64,000 nucleotides of DNA, taken from assembly GCA_903906515.1 (NCBI GenBank), contig CAIVKO010000065.1, forward strand, positions 1 through 64,000, written 5' to 3'. The stretch is from Akkermansiaceae bacterium. Lineage in GTDB: Bacteria > Verrucomicrobiota > Verrucomicrobiia > Verrucomicrobiales > Akkermansiaceae. Positions 8,885 through 26,357 of the stretch are shown piece by piece (within the stretch, counting starts at the first letter, position 1; the number at the start of each line of letters is the position of its first letter). Position numbers and translations under genes: made by a program. The notes under the pieces are model-generated. The model saw only the letters and a list, made by a program, of their open reading frames with translations. It was not told where the DNA came from and did no database searches.

Positions 8885-8934
8885 GGTGGGTTCATGATTC
8901 GTTTGCCCTCCGTTTTGATGCATGGCCCGTGTTT

Positions 8935-11346
8935 TCAGGGTTGCATCCGAATGAGCTCGGGAGTTTCGGTAAGGGCCTCGATCTTGCGGATTGTCGCGCG
9001 GATGAATTCGGCTTTCTGACGGCTCAAGTTTGGGGGGAAACCCTTTTCGCCTGGCGCAATTTCATCGGCGTAGCGTTGGAGTTGAGGGATCATGGGTTTG
9101 GCGTGGGTGCCGTAGGTGCAGAGAATGTCCATCAGCGTGACAATCCGTTTCTCGCTTCCCCAAAGGTTTTGGGTGCGCGCGTAGTCCACACAGGTTTGGA
9201 TTCCTTCTTCGATGTGATGCTGGGTTAACACGTTCAGGCCCTCAATGCGGACGCCGTCGGCAAACATTTCTCCACTGGGAGACGGTACGACCACCGCCTG
9301 ATAGATTGCTGGAAGCAGTGGTTCGATCTCCTTGTAGGAAAGCTTCCGATAGATCGAGGAAATGGAATCACGGGCGCGGCCATCCTGGTTTTTCAATCCG
9401 GCACGCACGGCTTTATAGAGGAGTTCGCGATCCACGTCATCGAGCGAATTCTTGAGCATCTGCCCGAAGACGGCGGAGCTGATGAAGCGTTGTTCCATGC
9501 CGCGCGGGTCATCCTTTGCGGGTGCTCTGGCAATCATTTCGAGCAACTCCGGCAGAGCGGGCATCGCAGGCTTACCGATGGCGGCGAGCGCTTCAGCGGC
9601 ACAGATGCGCAGCCAGTAATCCTTGTCCTGAAGGGTATTGCGGAGCGCAGGCACCGCAGGTGCGGATTTTTCCTTGAGCAGGGCGAGTGCCTGGCATGCA
9701 CCGAGGCGGCTTTGGAGATCCTTGGATACTAACAATTTAACCAGCACATCGACCGGTGCGTCCTTGCGGCGGGAAATCGCGATTGCGGCGCGATCCCTCA
9801 CCACCGGAGACCAATGGCCCAAACGTTTGAAAAGCTCCTCATCGCTCATCTTGTCATAAACGCTGTAGCGATCCTTGTTGGTCCAACCACCGCCATCGAG
9901 AACCACTTGTTTGGCATCGGCCGCGCTGAGTTTCGGGATTTTACTTTCGCGCTTGCCGGTGAGATGGGTTTTCTGGAGAGGCATGGCATAGGCGAGCAGA
10001 TAGGCACCGGTGGCATCCCAACCGCCGGTGGAGTCGCCATTGATTTGGGGTGGGCCTGGATGGCGGAAGCTGCCATCCCAACCGCGGGCGAAGTCATAAT
10101 ACCATGCGCCGAACTCATGCATCCAAGCACCGGTCGCTTGTGGTCCGCATTGCGCCACGCCGGGCATCGCCCAGGTCAGGTTCCAAAAATTACCGGTATG
10201 ACCGGTGTCGCGTTCGTTTCCGTGGCAGGCCAGGCACATGCGGGCGAAATATCCGGCGACTTCAGGTTCATCGAGCAGGTTGAACAACACGGCGGCCATG
10301 CCGTTTTTGCCATTGTCATCGTGGTTTTGAATCCATGGTCCGTGGTCACCGTAGGGCACCGATCCTTTGCCGGCATAAAACCGGAGCAGCTTCGTGCTGC
10401 GATCGATGGCGAGATCGATGACCGGGTCCTTGACGCCTGCCGAGCGAGCCAGCACGAGGGAAATGGTCAGTGGCACACCCGGTGCATTCATCATGCCGTA
10501 GCCCGCGAGCCGACCATCGGGCAGGGCAAACTTATGCCCCCATGAACCGACGTTACTCTGGCCCTTGGCGGACTCCATCGCAAGCCTGCGCAAGCCCGGC
10601 ATGACCGATTCGTCACCTGTGGCCATTTTGTATTCAGCTAACAGTGTGATCACATATCCATAAAACCATGTCTGCATCTTGTCGTCCGAGAAGTTAGACG
10701 CCCATTTAGTTTCGCGCTTCACCAGCGGCGTGTAGCTGGGATTTCCACTGGCCAGCAATGCCAGCGCGTTGAGCGAGCGGGTGATGGGGGTCTGGTCATT
10801 GGGATAATCTTTGTTCGCCATCCGTTTCGCCAATGCCTCGCATCCCAGTTCGAGGATGTGTTTCGACTTCGGGCAATCATACGGAGCGGTGGCGCTGTAG
10901 TCGCCAAGCACCGGGAGCTTCACCACGATTTCCTCGGTCTTTCCAGTGCGCCAACGGGTCATCGATAGTTCACCTTTTCCGGCATTTGATTCCGCGAGGG
11001 TCAGCGCCTTGCCAAACTCACTACGTGCGTCGTAGGAAAACGCCTTGCCTGCAGTCCCGAGGATCACGTCGCCTTTTTGCAGAATGCCATCGGCGGGCGA
11101 TCCCTTGGCAACATTCGTGATTGCGATCTGCCGTGCATCGGAGGTGGTGAGCTTGTCACTGTAGATCCATCCGGTGGCTCCTGTGGCGCCGAGTGTCCAT
11201 ACATGCGTCGCCACCTCGGGGATGGAATCGCCTTTGGTGAAGTCGGGGTTTTTGACCTCGATTCTCGGTCCGCCCGCGACGGCCGAAACGGCGAGGAGGA
11301 GGGTGGATACGACCGTGCAGGTGGTGATTTGATAAACAGCTTTCAT
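8935..11346 (-). CDS. PDZ / (alpha/alpha) barrel-like / HEAT exported protein (DUF6288 type), copy A
   Basis: Signal peptide, then a PDZ domain (about residues 75-150, 'AKGSPADGILQKGDVILGTAG'). A long helical domain (about 155-485) resembles an (alpha/alpha)6 toroid, with motifs LNALALLASG, PYGDH, DNGK, GHTGNFW and WYYDFARGWDGSF. HEAT repeats follow (about 500-770). The middle domain matches what databases call DUF6288, as far as I recall. Copies B (24036) and C (fused to GH35) share the motifs. The repeated Trp/Tyr, His and Asp residues suggest a sugar-processing or sugar-binding cleft. It heads the RND operon, which is an unusual partner. A CxxCH in this copy is not conserved in the others. 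Confidence 0.75.
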   Translation of the reverse strand: MKAVYQITTCTVVSTLLLAVSAVAGGPRIEVKNPDFTKGDSIPEVATHVWTLGATGATGWIYSDKLTTSDARQIAITNVAKGSPADGILQKGDVILGTAGKAFSYDARSEFGKALTLAESNAGKGELSMTRWRTGKTEEIVVKLPVLGDYSATAPYDCPKSKHILELGCEALAKRMANKDYPNDQTPITRSLNALALLASGNPSYTPLVKRETKWASNFSDDKMQTWFYGYVITLLAEYKMATGDESVMPGLRRLAMESAKGQSNVGSWGHKFALPDGRLAGYGMMNAPGVPLTISLVLARSAGVKDPVIDLAIDRSTKLLRFYAGKGSVPYGDHGPWIQNHDDNGKNGMAAVLFNLLDEPEVAGYFARMCLACHGNERDTGHTGNFWNLTWAMPGVAQCGPQATGAWMHEFGAWYYDFARGWDGSFRHPGPPQINGDSTGGWDATGAYLLAYAMPLQKTHLTGKRESKIPKLSAADAKQVVLDGGGWTNKDRYSVYDKMSDEELFKRLGHWSPVVRDRAAIAISRRKDAPVDVLVKLLVSKDLQSRLGACQALALLKEKSAPAVPALRNTLQDKDYWLRICAAEALAAIGKPAMPALPELLEMIARAPAKDDPRGMEQRFISSAVFGQMLKNSLDDVDRELLYKAVRAGLKNQDGRARDSISSIYRKLSYKEIEPLLPAIYQAVVVPSPSGEMFADGVRIEGLNVLTQHHIEEGIQTCVDYARTQNLWGSEKRIVTLMDILCTYGTHAKPMIPQLQRYADEIAPGEKGFPPNLSRQKAEFIRATIRKIEALTETPELIRMQP

Positions 11347-11457
11347 GGATCAATTGTGTGAACTTGGGATCTTTGATACGGAAGTTACTGAGAATTGTTA
11401 CAGCGTTCTACTCGCTGATTTTAGGGGTTTCCATTTTTGCTTGTGACATGATAGGAC

Positions 11458-12270
11458 ATGGGCGTGCGGAAAACACTACCCCAACCCGACCCGGAACATC
11501 CGATTACGGAGGAGGAGGTTCACAAACAAGTCCTCTTCGAACTGGAGACTCAGGAGCAGACGCTCTTGTCGGGTGCCACCAGTCGTTTGCACAATTTGAC
11601 CACCTTGTTCCGGGTGAGCCGGGATTTGTTCAGGGCCTTCCGCATGCTGAATTTCGCCGGACCATGCGTGACGATTTTCGGATCGGCACGGACCCTGCCG
11701 GGGACGCGTTACTACGAGATGGCACGCCAGATGGGCGCGGCCTGCGCGCGGTTGGGCTTCACCGTGATGACCGGCGGCGGGCCCGGCATCATGCAGGCTG
11801 GAAACCAGGGAGCGTTTGAAATCGGCGGCAGGTCGATCGGTGTCAACATTGAGCTGCCGTTCGAGCAGGAGCTCAATCCGTATGTCCAGCACTCGATCAC
11901 GATGCGATATTTTTTCACCCGCAAGGTGGTGTTGGTGAAGTATTCCTATGCCTTCATCGTGATGCCGGGGGGGGCGGGAACGATGGATGAAATGTTCGAG
12001 ACGATGACCCTGATCCAGACGGGGAAACTGAAGATTTTTCCGATCGTCCTGATGGGCAAGGACTATTGGCAGCCGCTGATGGACTTCGTGCACCGCATGG
12101 CGGAGCATGGGATGATCAGCCCGGATGATCCGGATCTGATCTTTTTCACCGACAGCATCGAGGAGGCCTCGGCGCATCTCCAGCGCCATGCCGTGCGGCA
12201 GTTCGGGCTGCGCCACAAGCGCGTACCCAAGGCTATGCGCATCCTCGGGGAGAAACCGATGGCTCGTTAG
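11458..12270 (+). CDS. LOG-family nucleoside monophosphate phosphoribohydrolase
   Basis: It belongs to the TIGR00730/LOG family, Rossmann-fold enzymes that release bases from nucleoside 5'-monophosphates (in plants, cytokinin activation). The family signature PGGxGTxxE is present as 'MPGGAGTMDEMFE', and the upstream 'GGGPGIMQAGNQGA' is typical. There are about 270 residues; an N-terminal helical stretch of about 45 residues precedes the fold. ATG 11458 is the first good start. It converges on the uracil-DNA glycosylase gene with a 4-base gap. Confidence 0.9.
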   Translation: MGVRKTLPQPDPEHPITEEEVHKQVLFELETQEQTLLSGATSRLHNLTTLFRVSRDLFRAFRMLNFAGPCVTIFGSARTLPGTRYYEMARQMGAACARLGFTVMTGGGPGIMQAGNQGAFEIGGRSIGVNIELPFEQELNPYVQHSITMRYFFTRKVVLVKYSYAFIVMPGGAGTMDEMFETMTLIQTGKLKIFPIVLMGKDYWQPLMDFVHRMAEHGMISPDDPDLIFFTDSIEEASAHLQRHAVRQFGLRHKRVPKAMRILGEKPMAR

Positions 12271-12274
12271 ATCC

Positions 12275-13171
12275 TCAGGATTTCGGAAGGAAGTATCGGC
12301 GTTGTTTCTCCGAGACCGGCATTTCCAAGCGGTCCATGACGGCCAGCATATCCTCCCAGACCATGCGCTTGATCGTTAAATCCGCATCGCTGCGTAGCAG
12401 ATAGCTCGGGTGATAGGTAACGCGCAGCGGGACACCCTCACATTCATGCCATGATCCGCGCATGACGGTGACATCATCGCCCGCTCCTAACAAACTCTCC
12501 GCGGCAGTGGCTCCCAGCGCGATAACGCAAGCGGGGCGGATGATACCGATTTCCGCGCGAACGAACGGCAGGCAGGCGGCGATTTCCGCGGGATCGGGTT
12601 TACGGTTGTTAGTCGTCTGACGCGGAGTGGCAGGGCGGAACTTGACGACAGTGGAAATGTAAACCTCCGCTCTTGATATCCCCATCGCACGCAGGATGTC
12701 GTCGAGTTTCTGGCCGGCGGGGCCGACGAATGGCTCACATTTTTTTTCCTCTTCGTATCCGGGAGCCTCGCCGACAAACATGATCCGCGCATCGGGATTT
12801 CCGGTTGAAAAAACCATGGTCTCGCGCAGGGTCGAGAGGGCTTTGGCAGGCGGCCACGATTTGGCCTGCTGCCGCAGTGATGCCAGGCGTTCTTCCTTCG
12901 AGCCGCCTTGAGCCGTCACCACCGTAGGAACGGCGACAGGCTGCGGGGCCATGGCGGGAGCGGGCACCATCGTGGGGACTGCCGCGGCAGTTTGTGGGGG
13001 AGGGGAGGATTCCGGACTCGCGGTTGCGCGGGTGGGTTTGCCCCCGGCTTGTGCGCGGCGATAGAGTTCCCTCAATCCGTCGCGCGCTCCTTCATCAAGC
13101 AGCACGTGGGTCAACCCGCGGTTTTGCTCGGCTTCCAGAAATCCTATGACGGCATCGACGGGACGAATCAC
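12275..13171 (-). CDS. uracil-DNA glycosylase, family-4-like, iron-sulfur ligands mostly lost
   Basis: Removes uracil from DNA. The catalytic block 'FVGEAPGYEEEKKCEPFVGPAG' and C-terminal 'GSWHECEGVPLRVTYHPSYLLR' are clear family-4 features. Family 4 normally binds a 4Fe-4S cluster by four cysteines: CxxC at the N-terminus, Cys in 'VKCRPP', and Cys in 'EIAAC'. Here the N-terminal pair is missing ('AKSWPPAKALSTLRE'), the third is Phe ('VVKFRPA'), and only the last remains. An N-terminal Pro/Ala-rich linker of about 90 residues is an addition. It is probably a cluster-free variant. It follows coaX on the same strand, 43 bases downstream of it. Confidence 0.85.
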   Translation of the reverse strand: MIRPVDAVIGFLEAEQNRGLTHVLLDEGARDGLRELYRRAQAGGKPTRATASPESSPPPQTAAAVPTMVPAPAMAPQPVAVPTVVTAQGGSKEERLASLRQQAKSWPPAKALSTLRETMVFSTGNPDARIMFVGEAPGYEEEKKCEPFVGPAGQKLDDILRAMGISRAEVYISTVVKFRPATPRQTTNNRKPDPAEIAACLPFVRAEIGIIRPACVIALGATAAESLLGAGDDVTVMRGSWHECEGVPLRVTYHPSYLLRSDADLTIKRMVWEDMLAVMDRLEMPVSEKQRRYFLPKS

Positions 13172-13214
13172 GCGGCCACGCTAGCCACTCGCCCGCAGGA
13201 GTGCAACTGCAAGC

Positions 13215-13952
13215 CTAAGGAAAAACCCGCGCCGCTACCTGGCGGAGGCCGTCGAGCGTGATATCCGCATCCACGGCATCGATTTCCGGCACGCCGCGGG
13301 CGATCAATGCGGCGTCACCGCCGGTGGCGATGATTTTGGCGTGCCCGTGCAATTCTGCACGGATACGGGTGATGATTTCTCGGACCAGTCCGCGATAGCC
13401 GAAAACCGCTCCGGCCTGCATCGCGTGCACGGTGGATTTTCCGATCGCGGAGGCAGGTTCTTCCAACTCGATGGCGGGAAGCAGCGCTGTTTTTTGGGGC
13501 AAATACCCGGACATGGCACCGAGCCCCGGCGCGATCACACCGCCGCAGTAGGCGGGTTGGTCGGAAATCACATCGAAGGTGACCGCCGTTCCGAAATCAA
13601 TGATGATGGCCGGAGCACCGTGGCGGCTGAGCACCCCGGCGGCATTGGCGAGGCGATCCGCGCCGATTTGCGGCGGATTCGGGTAATCAATCGCCATTCC
13701 GAGCGGGCTGGTATGATCGAGAAAATGCACGGGGCCGCGGGTTTCTAAAAATCCGCCGAGCACCGCCGCCTTTTTCGGCACGACCGAGCAAACGACCGCT
13801 CCTAAAAAATCGATTCCCCGCAGCGCTTCATCGAGCGATTCCGGTGTGACGTCACAAGTCGGGATGACGGCACGCCAGTCGTGAAGTCCGGCGGAGTCGC
13901 CGAGGGCGAATTTCGTGCGGGTGTTGGAGTTATCGACGAGTAGCCAAGCCAT
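13215..13952 (-). CDS. coaX: type III pantothenate kinase
   Basis: First step of coenzyme A synthesis: ATP-dependent phosphorylation of pantothenate, monovalent-cation dependent. Type III (ASKHA-fold) signatures are visible: N-terminal 'LLVDNSNTRTKFAL' phosphate loop, 'IGADRLANAAG', 'IIIDFGTAVTFDVI', 'GGVIAPGLGAM' and the late 'ATGGDAALIA'. The length of 245 residues fits CoaX. It is the middle gene of a minus-strand run with the M15-like peptidase gene, the small membrane protein and the glycosylase. Confidence 0.93.
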   Translation of the reverse strand: MAWLLVDNSNTRTKFALGDSAGLHDWRAVIPTCDVTPESLDEALRGIDFLGAVVCSVVPKKAAVLGGFLETRGPVHFLDHTSPLGMAIDYPNPPQIGADRLANAAGVLSRHGAPAIIIDFGTAVTFDVISDQPAYCGGVIAPGLGAMSGYLPQKTALLPAIELEEPASAIGKSTVHAMQAGAVFGYRGLVREIITRIRAELHGHAKIIATGGDAALIARGVPEIDAVDADITLDGLRQVAARVFP

Positions 13953-13955
13953 GGG

Positions 13956-14423
13956 TCACCAATGTTGAGTGGTAAAATATTTCAAGTTTGCCGGACCGAG
14001 TTGGGGTATTCCCGGGTCCGCCTTGATCACCAACGAGCCATCGTTGATGCGCAAGGTGAGAGGTTGCTGGATCTGAGCGGTTTCCAGCCAGAACTTGAAC
14101 CATAGATCCGTGGTGCCGGTATCCTTGTCTCCAGCCATCGTGGTATCCGCCGGTTCGATTTCACCGCCAGCCCCGGTACGGAGACGCACGGGTTTCTGCA
14201 AGTTGTGAGTCCGGCCTTCGGTCACTTTCAGATGCATATCCACCCAGAAATAGGACTGATCTTTCTTCACTTGGCAGCCCACCACCTTGCAAGCGGCCGC
14301 TGGGTCCACGCTCCATGCGTAAGGACGGAACCAACTCCAAACCGCAAACGCGGAAGAGGCCAACAAGACCACAACCAGGAGTTTTCGGATATTCCGACGA
14401 TACACGTCTGAGAATGGATTCAC
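13956..14423 (-). CDS. small membrane-anchored protein of unknown function
   Basis: The frame is open further upstream in another frame's shadow, but the start is read as GTG 14423. This GTG overlaps the stop of the upstream peptidase gene (14420-14423, GTGA), giving tight coupling. The 155-residue product has one N-terminal TM segment (about 13-31) and a beta-rich outside part with 'DLWFKFWLETAQIQQPLTLRINDGSLVIKADP'. I recognise no family. It may be a membrane partner of the peptidase encoded just before it. Confidence 0.7.
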   Translation of the reverse strand: MNPFSDVYRRNIRKLLVVVLLASSAFAVWSWFRPYAWSVDPAAACKVVGCQVKKDQSYFWVDMHLKVTEGRTHNLQKPVRLRTGAGGEIEPADTTMAGDKDTGTTDLWFKFWLETAQIQQPLTLRINDGSLVIKADPGIPQLGPANLKYFTTQHW

Positions 14424-15106
14424 CAATTGATGTTCACGCCGCGGGCGTCGATGTGGGTGAAATTCCAGTAACCGCCCACGCCACCTTTGAAGAGCCCGAG
14501 ATCGCGGAGTTGACGGGCGGTGGAGGTCACTACGGAAGCTCTCACGGGGAATTTCACATCCGCCGCGACATTTGCCTGATGCCAAGAACCGGAGCGGGCA
14601 CCCGGACAATGGGCGTTGTAGGCTGGTGCGCGGTATGCGGAGATAACTTCCACTTGGTTGACGTTCATTTCCAAGGCAATGCGGTCCACAACGCGGAGCG
14701 TGTATCCCATCCGCTTCCACCAAGACTTGGGCGGCAGAGAATTCCACACACCGGCTTTCGATTTGGCATGGGTCTCGATGACCTGCTTCGGGCACACCCG
14801 TTGCATTTTCAACGAGTTGAGATATTTGTAATAATCGTTCACTAGCGGGCCGTTTACGGCCATCCATTCTTCTGGAAGATCCGGGCGGGAGACTGGTTGG
14901 GGGTCCGGTTGGAGAGAGTTTTGAGACGATGTGAGAACCGAGACCTGCGGTGTCGAGGAGGATCTGGAGCGGGTGGCCGCACTTGCCGTGGCTGACGAGG
15001 CGAGGACTCCCAGCCCAGCCAATCCGAGGGTTCCCAGTAGCCCGCGACGGTCGATTCGAAGCGTTTCGTTGGATTCGGTGAGTGGGGATTCGTCGAAGAA
15101 GGTCAT
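14420..15106 (-). CDS. M15/DUF882-type zinc peptidase, Tat-exported
   Basis: It probably cleaves peptidoglycan peptides (D,D-carboxypeptidase or endopeptidase class). The twin-arginine signal 'RIDRRGLLGTLGLAGLG' indicates folded export. The C-terminal peptidase region has zinc ligands as in M15_3/YcbK-like proteins: 'SWHQANVAADVKF' (His and Asp in H-x6-D) and 'FTHIDARG' (HxD). The preceding linker is rich in Ser/Pro. It has a GTGA overlap with the next gene. Confidence 0.85.
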   Translation of the reverse strand: MTFFDESPLTESNETLRIDRRGLLGTLGLAGLGVLASSATASAATRSRSSSTPQVSVLTSSQNSLQPDPQPVSRPDLPEEWMAVNGPLVNDYYKYLNSLKMQRVCPKQVIETHAKSKAGVWNSLPPKSWWKRMGYTLRVVDRIALEMNVNQVEVISAYRAPAYNAHCPGARSGSWHQANVAADVKFPVRASVVTSTARQLRDLGLFKGGVGGYWNFTHIDARGVNINW

Positions 15107-15256
15107 GTCAGATTGGAAAGTTTGGGAGTTTTACAAAAGTGATCGCGGAGGGGGATTTGGGGTGGCGGCTGTTTGAATTCCGGTCGAACAAAGCAAAAAA
15201 TGGAGTGGCGGCAAGCAAAAAAGCCCCGATTTCCGCTAACCGTTACCGCTAATTTT

Positions 15257-15287
15257 TCGCATATCATTGGTTATCAATGATATGCGA
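15257..15287. terminator. perfect 13-bp palindrome directly after a stop codon
   Basis: The arms are TCGCATATCATTG and its exact complement around a 5-base loop (GTTAT). The element touches the TAA stop (15288-15290) of the GH-like/GT2 gene with no gap. No T-tract follows on the minus strand, so it is not a standard Rho-independent terminator. It may block 3'-exonucleases or be a protein-binding site. Confidence 0.5.
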
Positions 15288-17423
15288 TTAGGTCGCTGAT
15301 GCGCCAGTCGCCCCTGATTTGCGCGTAACAATCTTGGCATCGCCCCAGACCCGAACCAGCGTGTTTTTTCTGCCGTGCGGCCCGTGTTCCGTGGCGAGCA
15401 GGACCCGTGCGCCGTGTTTTTGCGCATCCCAAAGATCCGTAGGGCCGCCGGGTTTCCATCGATCACGCAACAAATCCTGCAGAAGTTTTTCGCGGGTTGG
15501 CCCGTTGATGGAATACTCGTGAGGATCCATGTGCGGGGGCTCGGCCCGCTCCATGCGTTTCCCCGGAATGAACAGGGTGCCATTTCGATCCCACGATCTG
15601 ATACGCGGTACCAGAACCGACACGATGGCCAGAGCCAACCGGGTATACCAACGATCGAACCTCTTCTCCAACCCACGCAGCGGCAGCATCCGGTTGGTGA
15701 CCGCCTGATAGCCCGCGGTGCCCATCGGCCCGTGATAGATAATCGAATCCGCCATCACCCGCACCGGTCCGCCGCCATAGACAAACCCCTGCCACTGCGC
15801 CCCGCCATTTTTTGAGAATTTCTCCGGGTGCTTGGTAATCAACAGTCGTTCTGCCTTTCCGTATCCGCGTTGTTGGCGGAGAAACGCGGAAATCGACGGC
15901 CTGCGGCGATGCCAGACAAATGCCCCCGGTGAAAACCCCAGACGGAAACCCGCCGCACGGAGGCGCCAACAGAAATCCACGTCATCGCCCGCCGTGTGGA
16001 ACTGTGGATCAAAGCCGCCGATGCTAGCGAAGGCCGTCTTCATCACCGCGAGGTTGCAGCCCGGTAGGTGTTCGGCCTCCTCGTCATCGAGCAAGACATG
16101 GCTCGGTGCTCCGGGTGCCGCGCAAACCACCGCTTCCGCCGTTGTCTGCGGTGGCGGGGGAAGATTCGGCCCGCCTGCTGCGGAAAATCGCCCGGTTTCA
16201 AATACCCGGCAGAGTCGCGCAAGCCACTCGGCGTCCGGTTCGCAATCATCATCCGTGAAAGCCAGGATTTCTCCATGAGCTGCCGCCGCGCCGGCATTGC
16301 GCGCCACGCTCAGGCCATTAGGTGGCAACCTCAACACCCGGACGCTCGGAAAATTTTCCTCCACAAAATCCGCCGTGCCATCCGTGGAACCATCGTCCAC
16401 CAGGATGATCTCGAAATCGCAGCCACCCATCCGGCACGCCGCCGTCAGGCAACGGCCGATGCGATCCCTGCCATTGCGCGTGCAAATAATGACGGAAAAG
16501 GAGGGAGGTTGGATGCTGAATTTTGAATTTTGAATGTTGGATTTTGAATGCTGGATCAAATTTTCAGAAATCCCGGCAAAGGCGGGTTTTTCGCCGCCCG
16601 CCCGGTCGAGCAGACCGAAATCCCAGTCGAGCACTTCCGCGTCATTGTTCCACCAACGATCGCTCCATGCGTAAATGGCCAAACCGGCGCATTCCTCGTC
16701 ACCGGCGATCATTGAAGCCCACCCCAACACCTCCGCCTGGCGCTCCAGACCATTTCGACGCGAATCCAATCCGAACTCGGAAATCACCAACGGCCTGTCG
16801 CCCGCGATGTGATGCAGGCGCTTGAGGTATTTCCGAAAGGCTTCCGGCTCTTCCAAATAGACATTGAAAGCTGAAAAATCGGCGTTTTCCGGCTCCAAAT
16901 ATTCGGTGCTCGGGTAGTTGGCATAGGCAAACAACAAATCCGGCGAGGTTTCCCTGCCAAGTTCGATCAACCCTTCGATCGCCCGCCGCACCTTGAGCGG
17001 ACCCATCCAACGCACCAAATCCGCCGGGATTTCATTGCCCACAAACACCCCGGCCAGCGCGGAATGATCTGCCACCGCACGGAGCGCCCGCACCAACTCC
17101 ACCCGCGCCGCACTGAAGAGCGCCGGACACCGGAAAAAATCCGCGTTTTGTCCCCACGTCAAACCGCCAAACACCCGCAGCCCGTGACGATCCGCTGCAT
17201 CCAACAACTTCCGATCCGGCATTTCAAATAACCTCACCGCATTCAGGCCCGCCGCCGCCATGCGCCGGAAATCCGGGTCGAAATCCTCCGGCCAACCGCC
17301 CGGAAACGGCCCGTAAGTCACCGCCCGCATGACCACACGCTCCGCCCCGGACGAGAAAAACTTCCCGTCCGTGCGCCATCGGTTTTCCAGAGCGCCAGCG
17401 GTCACAACCGGATTCTTATGCAT
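15288..17423 (-). CDS. two-domain protein: GH5/GH2-like TIM barrel fused to family-2 glycosyltransferase
   Basis: The N-terminal half (about residues 1-290) looks like a clan-A glycosidase barrel, with 'FVGNEIP' as acid/base-like motif and 'VISEFGLDS' as nucleophile-like motif, both with Glu in the expected places. A linker of about 20 residues ('NLIQHSKSNIQNSKFSIQ') leads to a GT2 domain. The GT2 domain shows 'FSVIICTRNGRDRIGRCL', DDGSTDG, 'FTDDDCEPDAEWLARL' and 'HTAGDDVDFCWRLRAAG'. The product may build or remodel a surface glycan. The linker is encoded by a low-complexity AT-rich repeat like those found between genes, suggesting two genes joined by read-through. Confidence 0.8.
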   Translation of the reverse strand: MHKNPVVTAGALENRWRTDGKFFSSGAERVVMRAVTYGPFPGGWPEDFDPDFRRMAAAGLNAVRLFEMPDRKLLDAADRHGLRVFGGLTWGQNADFFRCPALFSAARVELVRALRAVADHSALAGVFVGNEIPADLVRWMGPLKVRRAIEGLIELGRETSPDLLFAYANYPSTEYLEPENADFSAFNVYLEEPEAFRKYLKRLHHIAGDRPLVISEFGLDSRRNGLERQAEVLGWASMIAGDEECAGLAIYAWSDRWWNNDAEVLDWDFGLLDRAGGEKPAFAGISENLIQHSKSNIQNSKFSIQPPSFSVIICTRNGRDRIGRCLTAACRMGGCDFEIILVDDGSTDGTADFVEENFPSVRVLRLPPNGLSVARNAGAAAAHGEILAFTDDDCEPDAEWLARLCRVFETGRFSAAGGPNLPPPPQTTAEAVVCAAPGAPSHVLLDDEEAEHLPGCNLAVMKTAFASIGGFDPQFHTAGDDVDFCWRLRAAGFRLGFSPGAFVWHRRRPSISAFLRQQRGYGKAERLLITKHPEKFSKNGGAQWQGFVYGGGPVRVMADSIIYHGPMGTAGYQAVTNRMLPLRGLEKRFDRWYTRLALAIVSVLVPRIRSWDRNGTLFIPGKRMERAEPPHMDPHEYSINGPTREKLLQDLLRDRWKPGGPTDLWDAQKHGARVLLATEHGPHGRKNTLVRVWGDAKIVTRKSGATGASAT

Positions 17424-17502
17424 CCCGGAGGATTTCCGAAACCAAATTCTGTCGCTTCAAGCCGCGTTGACATCGGCCGCCATTCCGTCCACTGTCCCGC
17501 GT

Positions 17503-18168: not shown

Positions 18169-18253
18169 AATAAAAACTGAAACGCTGAAATGCTGGGAAG
18201 CTGAAACGGCTTCGCGCCACGCATCTTCTTGTTTCAGCATCTCAGCTTCTACC

Positions 18254-19654
18254 ATGATAACAGTTGGTCTCATCTCACTCGGCTGCGCGAAAAACCTGAT
18301 CGACTCGGAAGTCATGATCGGCCACCTCGCTCAGGCCGGCATGTCCCTCACTCCCGATCCGGAACTCGCCGATGTCCTCATCGTCAACACCTGCTCGTTC
18401 ATCGATATGGCGAAGAAGGAATCCATCGACGCCATCTTCGGTGCGGTGGATGGACGCAGGAGCGATCCTGATAGAGAACGCCAGAAAATCATCGTCGCCG
18501 GATGTTTGTCGCAACGCTTCGCCACCGAACTTCCCGGCATCATGCCCGAGGTGGACGCATTCATCGGGCTCGACCAAATCACCAAAGTCGCGCCAATCAT
18601 CGAAAATCTGCTAGGAAAGAAAAACGCCACCGAGGTTTCCAAGGACGAAGGCCCGGCCGCCACAGATGACCCGCGCGACTTCGTCACTCTCAAGCCGAAA
18701 TACGTGCCGGACTACACCACGCCGCGTTTCCGCCTCACACCGGATCACTTCGCCTACGTCAAGATCGCCGAGGGTTGCAACCACACCTGCACCTTCTGCA
18801 TCATCCCGCAGATCCGCGGCATGCACCGCTCGCGCACGCAGGAATCCGTGTTCAAGGAAGTCGAAGCGCTGGTGAAATCCGGCGTGAAGGAAATCAACCT
18901 GATCTCCCAGGACACCACCTATTTCGGCATGGACCAATGGGAAGGCGAACGCCCGAAACCGAGCTCGCCCGTCGATTCTAACCGCGGAAACTCACTCTGC
19001 ACCCTGCTCCGTCAGATCAACACGCTCGAAGGCGATTTCTGGGTGCGCCTGCTCTACACCCACCCCGCGCATTGGTCGGACGAGTTGATCCAAACCATCG
19101 CCGAGTGCGACAAGGTCGCGAAGTATGTGGACATCCCGCTCCAACACATTTCCGACAACATGCTCAGCGCGATGAAGCGCGTCACCAGCGGCGACTACAT
19201 CCGCGACCTGCTCCGCCGCATGAGAGCCGGCATCCCCGGCCTCGGCATCCGCACGACGTTCATCGTAGGTTTCCCCGGCGAGACTGATGAGGATTTCAAC
19301 GAACTGCTGGAATTCATTCGCGAGTTCCGTTTTGAACGCGCCGGTGTTTTCCAATACTCGAAGGAAGAAGGCACCCGCGCCTACAAGATGCCGAACCATC
19401 TCCATCACGCCACCCGCAAAAGCCGATGGTCCCGCTCCATGGCTGAACTCCAACGCATCGCCGGAGAAACCAACGCCGCCCAAGTCGGCAAACAAGTCCG
19501 CGTGCTCGTCGAACAACCCGGCGTCGCCCGCACCCAGTGGGACGCCCCGGAAATCGACGGCTCGGTGATCGTGGACGAATCGCTGCCCGTAGGCGAATTC
19601 GCAGACATCACCATCGGCGACTGGCGTGGCTATGATCTCGTCGCCGCAAGGTGA
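18254..19654 (+). CDS. rimO: ribosomal protein S12 methylthiotransferase
   Basis: Radical-SAM enzyme that adds a methylthio group to Asp of ribosomal protein S12. Start ATG 18254 gives 'MITVGLISLGCAKNLIDSE', the canonical N-terminus; the longer frame from 18086 overlaps the previous gene. The UPF0004 domain has three cysteines. The radical-SAM CxxxCxxC is 'CNHTCTFCIIPQIRG'. The TRAM-like C-terminus ends the protein. It is of standard length. A decayed glycosidase fragment starts at its stop codon on the other strand. Confidence 0.95.
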   Translation: MITVGLISLGCAKNLIDSEVMIGHLAQAGMSLTPDPELADVLIVNTCSFIDMAKKESIDAIFGAVDGRRSDPDRERQKIIVAGCLSQRFATELPGIMPEVDAFIGLDQITKVAPIIENLLGKKNATEVSKDEGPAATDDPRDFVTLKPKYVPDYTTPRFRLTPDHFAYVKIAEGCNHTCTFCIIPQIRGMHRSRTQESVFKEVEALVKSGVKEINLISQDTTYFGMDQWEGERPKPSSPVDSNRGNSLCTLLRQINTLEGDFWVRLLYTHPAHWSDELIQTIAECDKVAKYVDIPLQHISDNMLSAMKRVTSGDYIRDLLRRMRAGIPGLGIRTTFIVGFPGETDEDFNELLEFIREFRFERAGVFQYSKEEGTRAYKMPNHLHHATRKSRWSRSMAELQRIAGETNAAQVGKQVRVLVEQPGVARTQWDAPEIDGSVIVDESLPVGEFADITIGDWRGYDLVAAR

Positions 19655-20250
19655 TCCACCAACGGCAGGTACGGTTGGCAGAGAGATTGGTGACTTCGAT
19701 GTCGATCGTGTTCGCTCCGGGCTTCAGTAAAGCGCTGACGTCGAGGCGGAATGGATGGGCCACGAGCACACCCGCCGGCTTGCCATTCACGCGGACGCGA
19801 GTGCTTTCACGGACGTCTCCAAGGTCGAGCAGCCAGTGATTGTTAGATTTCGCGGGGAGTTCGACGGTTGTCGAATAAGAGGCCGCACCGGCGAAGCGTT
19901 GGGCCTCGGGATCGGCGAGTTGGGTCCATGACCCGAGTGCATCGAGAGTGGCCGGAGCGGGCAGAACGGGACCTCCTTCAACAAAGCGGATTTTCCATGG
20001 TCCATTCACCACGAGAGGTTCGCCTGATTTTTTGACAATCGGCAATGATGGTCCGTCGGCATCCTTGTTTACCAGAACCCGGAGGATGCACGATTCCCTC
20101 GGTTGGATTTGCAGGTAAACTTCCATGCCTGCCGGGAACGCTTTTCGGCAGGTTCTTCCAAATCACGATGGTGGCACCGGACTTGGCGAGTTCAATCATG
20201 CGGCGCGTAGTCTCGATCTTCATGAAGCTGGCGGAGTTGGGACTCATCGA
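19655..20250 (-). pseudogene. GH106-like rhamnosidase C-terminal remnant
   Basis: Two frames are needed to read it. First comes 'RMIELAKSGATIVIWKNLPKSVPG' (about 20150-20230), then 'EVYLQIQPRESCILRVLV' and the beta-sandwich 'WLLDLGDVRESTRVRVNGKPAGVLVAHPFRLDV'. These match, in order, the intact GH106 at 44726-47623, where they are separated by about 200 residues. So there is a large internal deletion with a frameshift. The 3' end abuts the convergent rimO stop, and the start is fused behind GH78. It is not functional. Confidence 0.75.
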
Positions 20251-22990
20251 TCCTAGAGAGGAACTCATAAGTTCCAGCCTCCACACGGAATACCGCGCGG
20301 TCGGCCTCCATGCGCAGTAAGGTGACGCCCGCAGTTTCTTTTACAGGGTGTCCGTTTTCGGTGATATCGGTAGTTTTCGCAGCCGGAATAAAAAGCGTGG
20401 CATGGGTGTTAGCTGGCACGGTGACGGCCCACCGGAACGAATCCCCTTCCCGTTTCCAATCGCTGACGATGCGGCCGCGGATCGAGTCGTAGTGGCCCTT
20501 GGCCCAGGTAACACCGGCACCAAGCTCCGGTTTCATCATGATCGCCTTGAAGCCGGAGCCATCGGTCTCGATGCCGAGCATGCTGCGGAACATCCACTCA
20601 CTGCAGGCACCGTAGGAGTAGTGATTGAAGGAGTTCATGCCGACGTCGCCAAATCCCTTCTCTTTCGTATAGCTGTTCCAACGTTCCCAAATGGTGGTGG
20701 CACCCTGCTCAATGGAGTAACCCCAGGACGGATAGGTTGTATTCTGGATCAGGCGGTAGGCCAAATCACTGCGACCGATTTGTGTGAGGGTGGGCAACAG
20801 GATCGGGACGCCCACGAAACCCACCGAGAGATGGTAGTCTTTTATTTCGATCTGTTTGACGAGGTGCTCGGCAGCCAGCTTCCGCTGGGGTTCGGTGAGC
20901 AAGTTGAAATACAGCGCCAGACAGTAGCCGGTCTGGGAGTCGCCAGTGATCACGCCGTCCGGCTTGACAAAGGTCTGCTGGAAATGGACACGGATTTCCT
21001 CGAAGAGTTTCCCGTATTTCGCCGCATCGTCGTGTTTGCCCAATGCCTCGGCCATTTTGGCCATCAGACTGGTACTGTATCCGTAGTAAGCCGCAGAGAT
21101 GAGCTCCTTGGGTGTGTTGGATCCAACTGCCAGCCAGTCGCCGAAGCCACCACCCGGACCGCCGAGACCTTTCTTACCGCAAGACTCGATGAAGCGAGCC
21201 ATGGCGTCATAGTGCTTTGCGATCAGTCGGGTATCGCCATAGACTTGATGGATCGTCCACGGGCAGATGATGCCGGCATCGGCCCAGGCCGGGGAGCCGT
21301 GACCGTGGAAAACCGGCGCCTGTTGGCCCACGCTTCCATTGGCAAGCTGGGTGTCCATCAGGTCCACGATCCACTTGCTGAAGAATGCCGAGACATCCTG
21401 ATGGTAACAACCGGAACGGATGAAAACCTGGGTGTCACCGGTCCAACCGAGCCGTTCGTCGCGTTGTGGGCAGTCGGTGGGCACCTCAAGGTAGTTGGAG
21501 CGCTGGCCCCAGAGGATGTTGCGGTGCAGTTGGTTGAGCATCGGATTCGAGCATTCGAACGAGCTGGTCATCGGTGCATCGGAATGAACGACGATACCCG
21601 TCACCAGGCCTGGCGTTGGCTTGTTAGACAGACCGGTGACCTCAACATAGCGGAAGCCGTGGAAGGTGAAGCGCGGTTCCCAGACTTCTTCGGCACCGCC
21701 TCTCAGGATGTAGTTATCGGCAGCACGGGCAGACCGCAGGTTTTCGGTATAGACGGTGCCATCGGCATTAAGCATTTCACCAAATTGCATGTGGACTTTA
21801 TCGCCAGCCGTTCCCCGGACTTTCAAACGGACCCAGCCGGAGAAATTTTGCCCGAGATCGAAGACGTAAGAACCGGGTTTTGGTTCGGTCAACTTGACCG
21901 TCGCCAGCTCCGCTGTTCGCCTAACAGGTGATCCCGGGTAGGCCTGGATCGCGGGTTTGATCGCGGATCCGGTGACCACAGGCGACCAGCCCTTTTCGGC
22001 GAAGCCAGCGCGACTCCATCCCTGCATTTCCTTGCGGGCGTCGTAGGTTTCGCCTTCCTGCATGTCGGAAACGATGATCGGGCCGAACGATGCCTTCCAG
22101 TCGGGACCGGAGGCGACCACTTCGCTGCTGCCGTCGGCGTAGTCGATGTGCAGTTGACACAGAAGGCGGAGTTTGTCTCCGTATTGATTCTGCCCTAGGA
22201 TGCTGATGTTGCCACGGAACCAACCATCGCCGAGGATCGCGCCGATGGCATTGGCTCCCTCGGCAACCATCTTGGTGACGTCATAGGTCCGATAGTAAAT
22301 GCGCTTTCGGTAGTCGGTCCAACCGGGGGTGAAAAATTCGTCGCCGATGCGGTTGCCGTTCAGGTGCATCTCGACGAAGCCCTGCGCGGTGACGTAGAGG
22401 GTAGCGCGGGAGATGGGCCGGGAAACTTTGAATTCCTTCCGCAGGTGAGGTGCGGGCAGATAACGTTTGGTTTTACCAGTGTCCTTGGAACCTGGAATCG
22501 GGAGCTTCGCGATCTCCTCTTCCGGGGGCAAACCATCATGGCCGATCCATTCCGCCTTCCAATCGGAATTTCCTAACAGCCCAATCGACCACTTGCCCGA
22601 TTTGCTCCAAACGGAGGCTTTGTTATCCTTGTCCCACACGCGGACTTTCCAATAACATGGCTGGCCTGATGAAAGAGGCTTCCCGCCGTAAGCAAGCTGG
22701 ATCGACTGATCGGATGCCACCTGCCCGGTGTCCCAGAGATCACCGGTATCCTTGACCAATTTGTCGGGCGAACTCGCGACGAGGATTTGATAGGCCGTTT
22801 GTTTTTGGCCGCGCGTCGCAGCCGCGGGTTGCCAGCTCAAACGGGGATTGGCTTGATCAATTCCTAACGGATTAACGAGATACTCGCATCGCAACTCGTG
22901 CGGTACGAGGGAGTCTGCCGCGGATGCAGGCATGCCGATGCATGCAAACACCATGATGGCGGAGCGCACGAGGGTCTTTATTGTCTTCAT
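20192..22990 (-). CDS. alpha-L-rhamnosidase, GH78, exported
   Basis: Hydrolyses alpha-L-rhamnose linkages. Signal peptide ends near 'ASAADS'. Then N-terminal beta domains. The catalytic (alpha/alpha)6 barrel follows with 'VPTDCPQRDERLGWTGDTQVF' and the Glu in 'YSIEQGATTIWERWNS', both typical of GH78. The C-terminal beta domain ends around 'VEAGTYEFLS'. The last about 25 residues are read from the fused GH106 remnant in another frame, so the native stop was probably lost. It is the last intact gene of the minus-strand glycan operon. Confidence 0.88.
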   Translation of the reverse strand: MKTIKTLVRSAIMVFACIGMPASAADSLVPHELRCEYLVNPLGIDQANPRLSWQPAAATRGQKQTAYQILVASSPDKLVKDTGDLWDTGQVASDQSIQLAYGGKPLSSGQPCYWKVRVWDKDNKASVWSKSGKWSIGLLGNSDWKAEWIGHDGLPPEEEIAKLPIPGSKDTGKTKRYLPAPHLRKEFKVSRPISRATLYVTAQGFVEMHLNGNRIGDEFFTPGWTDYRKRIYYRTYDVTKMVAEGANAIGAILGDGWFRGNISILGQNQYGDKLRLLCQLHIDYADGSSEVVASGPDWKASFGPIIVSDMQEGETYDARKEMQGWSRAGFAEKGWSPVVTGSAIKPAIQAYPGSPVRRTAELATVKLTEPKPGSYVFDLGQNFSGWVRLKVRGTAGDKVHMQFGEMLNADGTVYTENLRSARAADNYILRGGAEEVWEPRFTFHGFRYVEVTGLSNKPTPGLVTGIVVHSDAPMTSSFECSNPMLNQLHRNILWGQRSNYLEVPTDCPQRDERLGWTGDTQVFIRSGCYHQDVSAFFSKWIVDLMDTQLANGSVGQQAPVFHGHGSPAWADAGIICPWTIHQVYGDTRLIAKHYDAMARFIESCGKKGLGGPGGGFGDWLAVGSNTPKELISAAYYGYSTSLMAKMAEALGKHDDAAKYGKLFEEIRVHFQQTFVKPDGVITGDSQTGYCLALYFNLLTEPQRKLAAEHLVKQIEIKDYHLSVGFVGVPILLPTLTQIGRSDLAYRLIQNTTYPSWGYSIEQGATTIWERWNSYTKEKGFGDVGMNSFNHYSYGACSEWMFRSMLGIETDGSGFKAIMMKPELGAGVTWAKGHYDSIRGRIVSDWKREGDSFRWAVTVPANTHATLFIPAAKTTDITENGHPVKETAGVTLLRMEADRAVFRVEAGTYEFLSRIDESQLRQLHEDRDYAPHD

Positions 22991-23207
22991 GGATGTCCGG
23001 AATTTGCTTTTTCGATGAATCGGGTCACACTTGGCTGTTTCGAAAGTATCGGCTTGAGGATATTTGTAAACACCTCTGCTTGTCGAACCATTCCTAAATC
23101 GTTGGGATGACGGCCATCACCCAATCCGTCACCATATTCCCCTACCATTCCCTTATTCGGCAACGCGGCACCTCCCACCGGCCGGGTGATGGCTTTCGCG
23201 GTGGAGA
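22987..23207 (-). pseudogene. SGNH/GDSL hydrolase C-terminal remnant
   Basis: The frame carries 'GEYGDGLGDGRHPNDLGM', the DxxHPN block that holds the catalytic Asp and His in SGNH esterases, then 'AEVFTNILKPIL', the usual last helix. The N-terminal GDSL and GxND blocks are absent. It lies between the alpha/beta hydrolase and GH78 genes in the same orientation, so it was probably an esterase member of this operon. Confidence 0.6.
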
Positions 23208-24020
23208 TTATTTGGAGTGCTTGAGCACAAAATCGACCAGCTCCTGGCACTGGAAGAATGTGGGATCGACCTGATGACCTTTGTCGGGAATGATTTTGAC
23301 TTGGATCGAGCCGCCTCCGGCCTCATAGCGTTCCTTGAGGATCTTGGTGTTCAGATCATACGGCACCAGGTTATCCTTATCGCCATGCACCGCGAACATG
23401 GGCACCTTGTTCGCCAGCAGGCCCTTCAAATTGTCGATCGGATTGAACTCGGCGAGATTCGCGACGAGCTCGGTTTCGGTCATCGCGAAATCCGCGAGCG
23501 TTTGCGGCTTCGAGCTCTTCAGCGACCAGCTTGCCAGATTACAAACCGGATAGATTCCGACCCAGGCTTTCACCTTGTCCGGATTCCGGAACGCCCACGC
23601 GAGGGTCATCATGCCACCACGGCTTTGGCCGAGCAGGATCGGCTTGGGCGAGTAGCCGCGTTTCACCATCGCATCGTAAAACAGCGTAAACTTGGCGGTG
23701 CTGGCAGGTGATCCGCGCACCTCACCGAGATCGAAGCCCGCGATGCTGATGCCCGCCTTGGCGAAAGTCTCATAATAGCCTCTCCGTTCTGCTGGGTTTA
23801 AATTCTTCAGCGTCGGCGCATACCAGACCCACGGTTTTCCCGCCGCAGGTTCCGGTGCGGCATAGAGGAAGGCTTTATTTTCACCGACATCGAATGTCTC
23901 GGCGGTTTTTGGCAACACGTCTTGGGCCGCGAGCGTCAGTGTGAAACCGGCAAGACCCATCGCCGTGAGAGCGATGGAGGATAGGGAAAAAGCTCTGCGT
24001 GTGATGGGATTCTGTTTCAT
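23208..24020 (-). CDS. alpha/beta hydrolase (esterase-like), exported
   Basis: A signal with possible Tat character ('TRRAFSLSSIALTAMGLAG') leads into an alpha/beta-hydrolase fold. The nucleophile elbow is 'LLGQSRGGMM' (Ser). The acid/His are visible as 'HGDKDNLVPYD' and 'DKGHQVDPTF'. It is about 270 residues, near acyl esterases and dienelactone-hydrolase-like proteins. Its location between DUF6288 and GH78 genes suggests it removes acyl groups from a glycan. It starts 15 bases after the previous gene's stop, probably the same transcript. Confidence 0.8.
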   Translation of the reverse strand: MKQNPITRRAFSLSSIALTAMGLAGFTLTLAAQDVLPKTAETFDVGENKAFLYAAPEPAAGKPWVWYAPTLKNLNPAERRGYYETFAKAGISIAGFDLGEVRGSPASTAKFTLFYDAMVKRGYSPKPILLGQSRGGMMTLAWAFRNPDKVKAWVGIYPVCNLASWSLKSSKPQTLADFAMTETELVANLAEFNPIDNLKGLLANKVPMFAVHGDKDNLVPYDLNTKILKERYEAGGGSIQVKIIPDKGHQVDPTFFQCQELVDFVLKHSK

Positions 24021-24035
24021 GATTCGTTGTTTTGA

Positions 24036-26357
24036 TCAGCGTTTTTCAGGCTCAAGGACCTTGATAATCTCGTCTCCGCCGGGCAATTGTGACAACTCCT
24101 GTTGGATACGTTTCAGGTTCCAATCGATGATGATCGTCTGGTCAACTCCACCGGGCACGGTCGGATTCTTTTTGGCAAGCGCGGCGTAGGACTTCGCCAA
24201 TGTCTCCGTGCTGCGTTTTTGTACCTCCGGTGACGCGGTCTTCAACTGATTGACGACGGCACCCATCGGCCATCCTCTGCCGACACATTCGCCGACCCGC
24301 GTGTTGTTAGATAACCACTCGCCGAGTACCGGCATGATTTTCTGATTGTAGCGCTCATCCGCTATGACTTTCGCGAGCGAGTAAGTGGCGGCGGTTCGCA
24401 GCCACCATTCGTCCTGGCCCAGCCAGTAAACGAGGCGATCGACATGAGGAGCGATCAGTTCCGCTTTTGCGAGGCTGAGCGCCATCAGGGCATTCTCCAC
24501 GACCCACCATGATTCGTTAGGGTCGTTGATGATGCGGAGGAGTTGCTGCGCCATCTCGTCGGTGACACGCTCCGCAGGCATGGGCTTGCGCTTGAAGAGG
24601 TTGTAGATGACCATCGTGCCGGTCTCCCTCACGCGAGGGTCCTTGTCTTTGAGAAGTTCGACGACCAGTTTGTCGCGGTTTTGTTTGCATATTTCAGCAG
24701 CCGCCATTTCGCGCAGATTCTGCTCGGGGTGGCGCGCATATTGAAGCAGGACGTCGTCGGCAATCGCGGGATCCGCGAGTTTTCTCCAAACAGGCGCAGA
24801 GGCTGATGTCAGCAGTTTTTCCTGATCCACATCCTGGATTTTTCCGGACCGGTCCGCTGCCGGCGCAAGCGAATAGAAGACATCATCCGTCGCATTGCCC
24901 CACGGGCGCTTCGGCAACTGATAGGACTTGCAGAATTTGGTCGCGGGGGCGCCGGTGATACGCAGTGTCTTGCGTGGCACAGTGTAACTCCATGCCAGCC
25001 CGGTTCCCCACTGCGGAGTATCATATCTACCTTCGCCCACTCCCTGTATATCGCCACCGATGATACCAAATGATCCGTCAAAGCGGCGGGAGAGTTCGTA
25101 GAACCACATGCGCTCGTTCATGAACTCGCGATACTTCGTGGGCTTCTTGTCGTGCAACAGCCCCATCGAGGCGCTGCGCCAGATCTCGCCGATTCCGCCA
25201 CCCGTGTGGCCTTGCAGCATCCAGGATGTGGAATAGAAACCTTTCACGGCCGAAACATCACGGGCGGACGCGTAGATGGATTTCTCGCCTTCCGGGGTGA
25301 GTGATGCGGCCGCTCCCATTTGAAATGCAAAGGCACCACATTTGCCATTATCGACAGAGCCGCCCTCCGGCAGTTGGTCGCCATAGGGAACATTGCCGTG
25401 GCCCGCATACCTAAAAAAATGTTTCAGCGATGTTTGCAGGGTGTATTCATCCACGTTGACGCCGCACTCCTTGGCCAGAAGCAGGAGGGTCACCATGTGC
25501 ACACCGGCAGCATTGATGTGTCCACCCATCATATAGGTGAACGGAATGCCGCCACGCTGGGTCCACGCGCCGTTGTACATGGTGCGCCTGGCGCTATCCG
25601 CCATTTTTTCTATCAACGGAAGAACCGACGGATCGCCGGTGCGCAGGTAATATTCACAAAAACCCAAACTGGGATAGCCTAGGTTCCAGGCATGTTGGGT
25701 TGCACCGATGTCGACGTCCTTGTTTTTCTCCACCACCTCCTTGACCCAGCCGCGCGCGACTTCCAAATCCTTCTGCTCGCCGGTGGACAGCATGAATAGC
25801 AAACCCAGATCCTGGCCATTCCATGCATGATTCCCCGACTTTGCCAGATAGTCCGCCACACCGCGCACGATTTTGTCCGACTTCGGGCATTTGAGCGGCC
25901 ACGTAGGGCTGTAGGCCCCGAGCACCGGGATCTTGACGACGACCTCCTGAGCTGCGGAAGCGGCATCTTCCTTGACCTTGAATTTAACAACCCCATCGGA
26001 GGCTTCGGCCTTCGTGATGATTCCACCGAAAATGATGCGCGGATCGAAGTCCTTCAACGTCACGCCATTGATGCTTTCGATGATTTGTCCCGGCTTAAGC
26101 TTGCCGGTCGCCTCGGCGGGCGAGTCTTTTTCGACATTCTTCACCTTCATGCCAAATGCCGGCAAGGTCAGCTCTATGCCGATGCCAACGGGTCCAAAGC
26201 GATCGATGGTGTAGGGTTTCTTCCAACCCGTTTCCTGCGGAAACAAACTGAATGGAGGAGGTTCCTTATAATAAGTTTCCTCAGCCAGCCCGGAGGTGGA
26301 TAGAATGAGTGACACGGCAAATCCCGCGAATAGATTGTTAGACAGCTTGGTTTTCAT
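24036..26357 (-). CDS. PDZ / helical / HEAT exported protein (DUF6288 type), copy B
   Basis: Same architecture as copy A: signal peptide, PDZ-like domain (about residues 50-140, 'DSPAEATGKLKPGQIIESING'), 'PVLGAYSPTWPLKCPKSD' junction, helical domain (about 155-500), and HEAT repeats (about 530-740). Shared with copy A: PYGD, DNGK, GHTG, 'WFYELSRRFDGSF', and a Trp-Thr-Gly turn. Copy B lacks the GNFW after GHTG. In an operon with GH35, SASA and GH78 genes, a role on the same polysaccharide is likely, as an unrecognised enzyme or binding scaffold. Confidence 0.75.
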   Translation of the reverse strand: MKTKLSNNLFAGFAVSLILSTSGLAEETYYKEPPPFSLFPQETGWKKPYTIDRFGPVGIGIELTLPAFGMKVKNVEKDSPAEATGKLKPGQIIESINGVTLKDFDPRIIFGGIITKAEASDGVVKFKVKEDAASAAQEVVVKIPVLGAYSPTWPLKCPKSDKIVRGVADYLAKSGNHAWNGQDLGLLFMLSTGEQKDLEVARGWVKEVVEKNKDVDIGATQHAWNLGYPSLGFCEYYLRTGDPSVLPLIEKMADSARRTMYNGAWTQRGGIPFTYMMGGHINAAGVHMVTLLLLAKECGVNVDEYTLQTSLKHFFRYAGHGNVPYGDQLPEGGSVDNGKCGAFAFQMGAAASLTPEGEKSIYASARDVSAVKGFYSTSWMLQGHTGGGIGEIWRSASMGLLHDKKPTKYREFMNERMWFYELSRRFDGSFGIIGGDIQGVGEGRYDTPQWGTGLAWSYTVPRKTLRITGAPATKFCKSYQLPKRPWGNATDDVFYSLAPAADRSGKIQDVDQEKLLTSASAPVWRKLADPAIADDVLLQYARHPEQNLREMAAAEICKQNRDKLVVELLKDKDPRVRETGTMVIYNLFKRKPMPAERVTDEMAQQLLRIINDPNESWWVVENALMALSLAKAELIAPHVDRLVYWLGQDEWWLRTAATYSLAKVIADERYNQKIMPVLGEWLSNNTRVGECVGRGWPMGAVVNQLKTASPEVQKRSTETLAKSYAALAKKNPTVPGGVDQTIIIDWNLKRIQQELSQLPGGDEIIKVLEPEKR

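Follow-up and report, generated by a model that had tools for sequence, protein, structure and literature searches.

DUF6288 of an Akkermansiaceae bacterium, a predicted PDZ-toroid-HEAT family and possible partner of SASA-type carbohydrate esterases

The window analysed here, a stretch of 64,000 nucleotides from an Akkermansiaceae bacterium, carries three copies of the Pfam family PF19805 (DUF6288), all located on the minus strand (Table 1). The three copies counted in the preliminary description were all recovered, each scoring above the gathering cut-off of 26.3 bits; with E-values of 7e-121 to 1e-153 (Pfam), the matches are not due to chance. The Pfam model, an entry without function, comprises the later part of a PDZ domain and a toroid. 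Copies 1 and 2 match it over the full length (model positions 1–402 and 3–402, respectively), and copy 3 over positions 55–402 only.

Table 1. Position and main characteristics of the genes and features found in the window.
Feature	Position	Strand	Characteristics
alpha-L-fucosidase-like gene	732..2261		
RND pump and adaptor genes, immediately following copy 1 at a distance of 11 bp	4578..8923		
DUF6288 copy 1	8935..11346	-	PF19805 512.7 bits, HEAT_2 49.1 bits; AlphaFold2 pLDDT 92.3, pTM 0.91
Copy 1, parts			N-terminus signal-peptide-like; PDZ residues 57-143; toroid 146-466; HEAT 475-791
Copy 1, toroid	9949..10911	-	12 helices; DSSP of model and conservation
GH78 alpha-L-rhamnosidase, end of the same-strand run	20192..22990	-	PF17389 395 bits
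alpha/beta-hydrolase (Peptidase_S9-like), 15 bp after copy 2	23208..24020	-	PF00326 49.6 bits
DUF6288 copy 2 ('WP' subfamily)	24036..26357	-	PDZ, toroid and HEAT; PF19805 430.4, PDZ 25.8, HEAT_2 34.5 bits
SASA-type carbohydrate esterase, between copies 3 and 2	26413..27600	-	PF03629 62.9 bits; GQSNM motif
DUF6288 copy 3, C-terminal part of GH35 ORF	27485..30808	-	PF19805 404.6 bits
Putative GH35/DUF6288 fusion junction	28676..28696	-	GAGGAG on either side; sequence and alignment to L071
Second SASA-type esterase, upstream of copy 3	30923..32347	-	PF03629 60.7 bits; GQSNM motif

HEAT_2 scored above the cut-off for copies 1 and 2; for copy 3 it is not listed by Pfam. The PDZ family exceeds its cut-off of 23.2 bits in copy 2 but stays below it in copy 1 (17.3 bits), where the AlphaFold2 model nevertheless has strands and a helix in PDZ order at residues 57–143; at the same region of copy 1 the DUF6288 family profile matches DegQ/DegP chains with E-values of 4e-4 and 2e-3. 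Both copies start with N-termini that resemble signal peptides as judged by eye. On these sequence features, copies 1 and 2 are predicted to be exported PDZ-toroid-HEAT proteins. Of the parts previously attributed to the three copies (HEAT to two of them), the toroid is present in all of them and HEAT repeats in copies 1 and 2, but only the end of the PDZ domain is kept in copy 3. The motifs PYGDx, DNGK, GH[TC]G, W[YF]Y[DE][LF] and G[SG]F, read in the same description, were found in all three translations. When 92 toroids were arranged in an evolutionary tree, with the five related toroids described below as root, copies 1 and 3 grouped with the types containing GHxGN; copy 2 was placed among the 'WP' types.

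From position 32347 down to 20192 the minus strand encodes, in this order, a SASA esterase, the GH35-DUF6288 protein, the other SASA esterase, copy 2, the alpha/beta-hydrolase, an ORF of 87 amino acids and the GH78 rhamnosidase. A PA14 domain in the upstream SASA esterase remained below the threshold (20.3 bits vs cut-off 24). The proposed operon of two copies with GH35, GH78 and esterases holds as far as the presence of SASA, GH78 and GH35 is concerned, but a single gene accounts for both GH35 and copy 3. A link to glycan genes as such was supported by these SASA, GH78 and GH35 neighbours, and a GH95 gene adjoins 2 of 41 relatives of copy 1. With regard to the RND pump, no recurrence beside relatives of copy 1 was noticed on inspection of the gene strips listed.

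The ORF containing copy 3 consists of a GH35 beta-galactosidase (residues 48–357), beta domains extending to residue 588 and the PF19805 match at residues 712–1048 (Pfam). Behind the GH35 part the reading frame continues without interruption through the last portion of a PDZ domain and the whole toroid, followed by approximately 50 unrelated residues, HEAT repeats being absent. A longer relative is found in an Akkermansiaceae MAG (L071), which encodes a protein of 813 amino acids with a PDZ-like N-terminus, a toroid and a long C-terminal part. The toroids of the two proteins are 87% identical, with the identity beginning at residue 709, and the SASA esterase that comes after the L071 protein is 71% identical to the one following copy 3 in the window. 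Because of this longer relative and the matching SASA gene next to it, copy 3 most likely originated, to judge from the alignment, through a deletion between a GH35 gene and a DUF6288 gene that made them one, the HEAT part being lost as well. The fusion may also be an assembly chimera, since it was absent from all 19 related genomes searched.

In the AlphaFold2 model of copy 1 the toroid is built of 12 main helices. Using VIA-align, it could be superimposed on six solved (alpha/alpha)6-type entries with Z-scores of 20.0–21.6 over 275–301 residues, i.e. on the GH76 structure 6y8f (Z 21.6; 3.5 Å, 279 residues), MmpH (20.5), a cellobiose 2-epimerase (20.5) and a squalene-hopene cyclase (20.0), among others. 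A separate model of the copy 2 toroid, of only moderate confidence (pLDDT 70.9), gave a similar list, with GH76 reaching Z 22.4, followed by drimenyl diphosphate synthase (19.6), epimerases (19.2), squalene-hopene cyclase (18.6) and GH105 (18.1). These toroid matches come from VIA-align only, as a Foldseek search with the full copy 1 model returned a list filled with HEAT and armadillo matches. The resemblance to (alpha/alpha)6 enzymes expected before any model was available was thus borne out, with GH76, epimerase and cyclase folds being the closest, and the DUF6288 toroid is, as modelled, of the (alpha/alpha)6 type with six helical hairpins. The GH76 alpha-1,6-mannanases were the best fold match in both comparisons, ahead of other functions by 1 to 4 Z units; they differ, however, in sharing only 9–12% identity with the DUF6288 toroid, without profile signal (5-sequence alignment). 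Since epimerases and terpene cyclases follow GH76 at this distance of 1 to 4 Z units, the function of the toroid does not follow from its fold. As to the SASA esterases, they represent a separate domain, and no esterase was seen among the listed solved-structure matches of the toroid.

Profile comparisons of the DUF6288 toroid with GH76 (5 sequences), GH88/105 (18) and AGE epimerases (24), all of them small alignments, yielded no signal of sequence relationship at that depth. The PF19805 model does match, weakly, toroid proteins of approximately 350–520 amino acids from the same phylum that resemble squalene cyclases and prenyltransferases. An alignment of five of these proteins (L254 being left out) was compared with the DUF6288 toroid in HHalign and gave 98.7% over 294 columns with a score of 122.8, compared with at most 19.4 for 30 column shuffles and 25.1 for the reversed alignment. 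The same five toroids match three squalene-hopene cyclase sequences at 97% (HHalign), whereas the DUF6288 toroid compared with the latter directly reached 32.8% only; the Akkermansia-type DUF6288 copy matches both squalene-cyclase families at an E-value of 0.003, under their cut-offs. On these profile comparisons, the DUF6288 toroid is homologous to the squalene-cyclase-like toroids of the phylum, which in part also match PF13243. They differ from it, however, in that they are by their length too short to accommodate PDZ, toroid and HEAT parts, and their aligned representative L252 has no histidine at the column of the GHTG motif. The motif DxDD of cyclases occurs in only two of 141 DUF6288 toroids.

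A frequent companion of DUF6288 is the SASA-type esterase, which is both a recurrent neighbour and a fusion partner. It is the commonest family among the direct same-strand neighbours of copy-1 relatives, occupying the downstream position in 19 of 44 cases (the next family, ThuA, in three) and the upstream position in 14 of 41 (the next families in two each). Scored with an HMM built in this analysis, SASA was found at gene offset +1 in 24/67 and at −1 in 17/74 cases, and at offsets 5–6 only in 1–3 of 25–43. In the own genome of the window and its relatives the corresponding values for +1 and −1 were 10/51 and 8/49. Counted per DUF6288 gene with a neighbour, SASA lies directly beside 36 of 83 and 15 of 57 genes in two sets, and beside GHxGN types more often (41/94) than beside all other types together (10/46). 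Four of 79 loci (L093, L131, L132 and L139), in which no DUF6288 gene was called, were left out of the neighbour counts, as was L036 from one foreground set. Among 196 genes taken at random from G004, a relative with a complete genome, none was SASA. Contexts lacking glycan genes in most species had been named beforehand as evidence against the proposal. The outcome in this respect is mixed, as direct SASA neighbours are far above background but fewer than half of the DUF6288 genes have one. Within 4 kb of the DUF6288 genes of G004, SASA accounts for 4 of 63 genes, the remainder being mixed and including housekeeping genes, so that not all DUF6288 copies reside in glycan clusters; in a sample of 63 drawn from the 196 random genes of that genome, SASA was not among the first 25 of 95 families listed.

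Furthermore, four proteins combine DUF6288 and SASA in one polypeptide, all of them scanned because of their long open frames. Three are PDZ-toroid-HEAT-SASA fusions, two from Planctomycetaceae MAGs (L123 and L144) and one from L286; the fourth (L278:1805-14521) is an ORF of 4238 amino acids with DUF6288, HEAT, SASA, Ig, cadherin, laminin-G-like, YDG and PATR parts. The genomes G271 and G276 have the fused protein as their only PF19805 match at E ≤ 0.001. Outside this count of four, an ORF in L077 cut by the contig end has the C-terminal stretch of a SASA domain before DUF6288. At the level of genomes, the copy numbers of DUF6288 and SASA are correlated with a rho of 0.76 in 20 genomes and of 0.93 in 13 genomes of one genus, both sets including the own genome; in 20 other genomes, chosen for having a copy-1 relative, rho was 0.57, decreasing to 0.28 (p 0.27) when the three genomes richest in DUF6288 were removed.

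The domain layout, the predicted fold, the squalene-cyclase-like homology and the SASA adjacency and fusions are the observed basis for the best-supported interpretation, to which we give about an even chance of being correct, i.e. that DUF6288 is an exported PDZ-toroid-HEAT partner of SASA-type (SGNH) carbohydrate esterases acting on acetylated glycans. The face of the toroid carrying the long loops, with His383, Tyr332, Asp/Glu334, Lys347 and Arg421, would bind the glycan, and the PDZ and HEAT parts would provide docking sites for the esterase or for further proteins of the envelope. The esterase would then strip acetyl groups, whereupon partner glycosidases, here GH35 and GH78, could act. 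Besides the prevalence of SASA among direct neighbours, the GQSNM motif in both SASA proteins of the window speaks for such a partnership. Against it, more than half of the DUF6288 genes are without SASA as a direct neighbour, the contig loci are 60–79% relatives of copy 1 and hence not independent cases, and the long-loop face is no more conserved than the rest of the toroid.

It is tentatively conceivable that the toroid is itself a catalytic enzyme of an undescribed family, a hydrolase, lyase or epimerase using His383 together with Asp/Glu334 or Arg421, on a substrate that SASA deacetylates first. Apart from the likeness in fold to GH76, cellobiose 2-epimerase and GH105 and the fusions, with GH35 in the window and with SASA at other loci, this is favoured by the residues retained in 141 aligned cores (those covering fewer than 300 profile columns being left out). 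His383 is present in all 141, Tyr332 in 140, Arg421, Lys160 and Asp245 in 139 each, Cys158 in 138, Glu238 and Trp392 in 137, Lys347 in 132 and an acidic residue (Asp or Glu) at position 334 in 128. In the copy 1 model, His271, Tyr332, Asp334, Lys347, His383 and Arg421 are positioned in or beside the long loops preceding every second helix, on the side where (alpha/alpha)6 enzymes usually have their active site. The preliminary description had the conserved residues concentrating on a presumed sugar cleft; as a general trend this was not supported, the mean conservation being 0.44 on the long-loop face, as opposed to 0.56 on the opposite face, which carries Pro155, Cys158, Lys160 and Asp245, and 0.45 in the helix bodies. 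The higher average conservation of the opposite face speaks against taking the motifs alone for a catalytic signature. Moreover, the histidine at position 271 is conserved in 127 sequences and lost in 14, position 334 is neither Asp nor Glu in 13, and the absence of a profile signal to GH76, GH88 and AGE in the small alignments used likewise argues against catalysis. The same is true of the catalytic Asp-Asp pair of GH76, which we take to fall near the Trp227 column of the DUF6288 alignment: two adjacent aspartates within eight residues before that column were found in 4 of the 141 sequences. The case for catalysis by the toroid is built on one invariant histidine and the modelled fold. Slightly less likely is a specific form of this idea, in which a new catalytic carbohydrate-active family would have arisen from a squalene-cyclase-like toroid, as in the ExbB/ExbD operon, by gaining the invariant His383 site. 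Its members would combine with SASA, in cis or in trans, so that acetylated polysaccharides are first deacetylated and then cleaved by one module.

The main other reading is an envelope role of the ExbB/ExbD type, for which direct support comes from one subfamily only. Here DUF6288 would act generally as a scaffold in the envelope for an ExbB/ExbD machine of the TonB/Tol-like type, its PDZ and toroid parts binding partners or peptides and the link to esterases being secondary, which we regard as unlikely. L021, L035, L054 and L058, four genomes from the same genus as the window, possess an operon encoding a TPR protein, ExbB, two ExbD, a protein of 147 amino acids, DUF4159, a protein of 386 amino acids and finally a DUF6288 protein of 1317–1393 amino acids. 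A fifth DUF6288 locus (L061) has a DUF4159-like ORF alone; no publication on DUF4159 was found in the parts of the literature searched. The homologous squalene-cyclase-like toroid of L287 likewise ends a TPR-ExbB-ExbD-ExbD operon, and the Akkermansia-type DUF6288 copy has, by eye, a hydrophobic stretch resembling a membrane anchor before the PDZ domain. However, when all six-frame ORFs were considered, ExbB/ExbD-like ORFs were present at only 4 of 141 DUF6288 loci, which does not support ExbB/ExbD as the general context of the family, and none was found at the loci holding the window copies (L025 and L026). L287 is the sole one of five regions with the homologous toroid to show this arrangement, and the SASA fusions and adjacency also disagree with a general scaffold. 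That there is no functional link at all, DUF6288 and SASA being both expanded in polysaccharide-degrading genomes and meeting by chance in glycan clusters, is very improbable in view of the sharp peak of SASA at offsets ±1 and the four fusions, even though the SASA complement of the own genome is large by itself and the copy-number correlation weakens without the DUF6288-rich genomes.

The link to SASA esterases, together with that of one subfamily to ExbB/ExbD, provides a testable hypothesis for this expanded but uncharacterised family, concerning the handling of acetylated glycans by these bacteria; no publication naming DUF6288 or PF19805 was found among the titles and opening parts of abstracts searched. 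The own genome contains 22 PF19805 matches, some of them two per gene, and the family is present in 10 of 19 relatives (11 of 20 genomes including the own one), with a maximum of 53 matches in one of 20 genomes searched. The own genome (4.5 Mb) also has 75 SASA matches, the most of 20 genomes compared. Across the phylum, 28 of 240 genomes exceed the PF19805 cut-off. Named genomes hold at least 563 confirmed relatives, the best 79 loci belonging mostly to MAGs of Verrucomicrobiota and Planctomycetota, and viral contigs yielded one weak locus. In one genus of the same family, inferred to be Akkermansia, 10 of 20 genomes have one copy each in an open frame of approximately 1460–1510 amino acids, four of which were read. 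The Akkermansia-like locus L147, with relatives L148–L150, encodes a DUF6288 protein of 1482 amino acids whose N-terminus looks by eye like the N-lobe of a kinase, without a Pfam match, and is followed by a hydrophobic stretch, a linker rich in proline and glutamate and the PDZ domain. Four of 12 mostly longer DUF6288 proteins (L020, L029, L278 and L285) contain domains of the Ig, cadherin, PASTA or PA14 families, in agreement with a location on the cell surface or beyond it.
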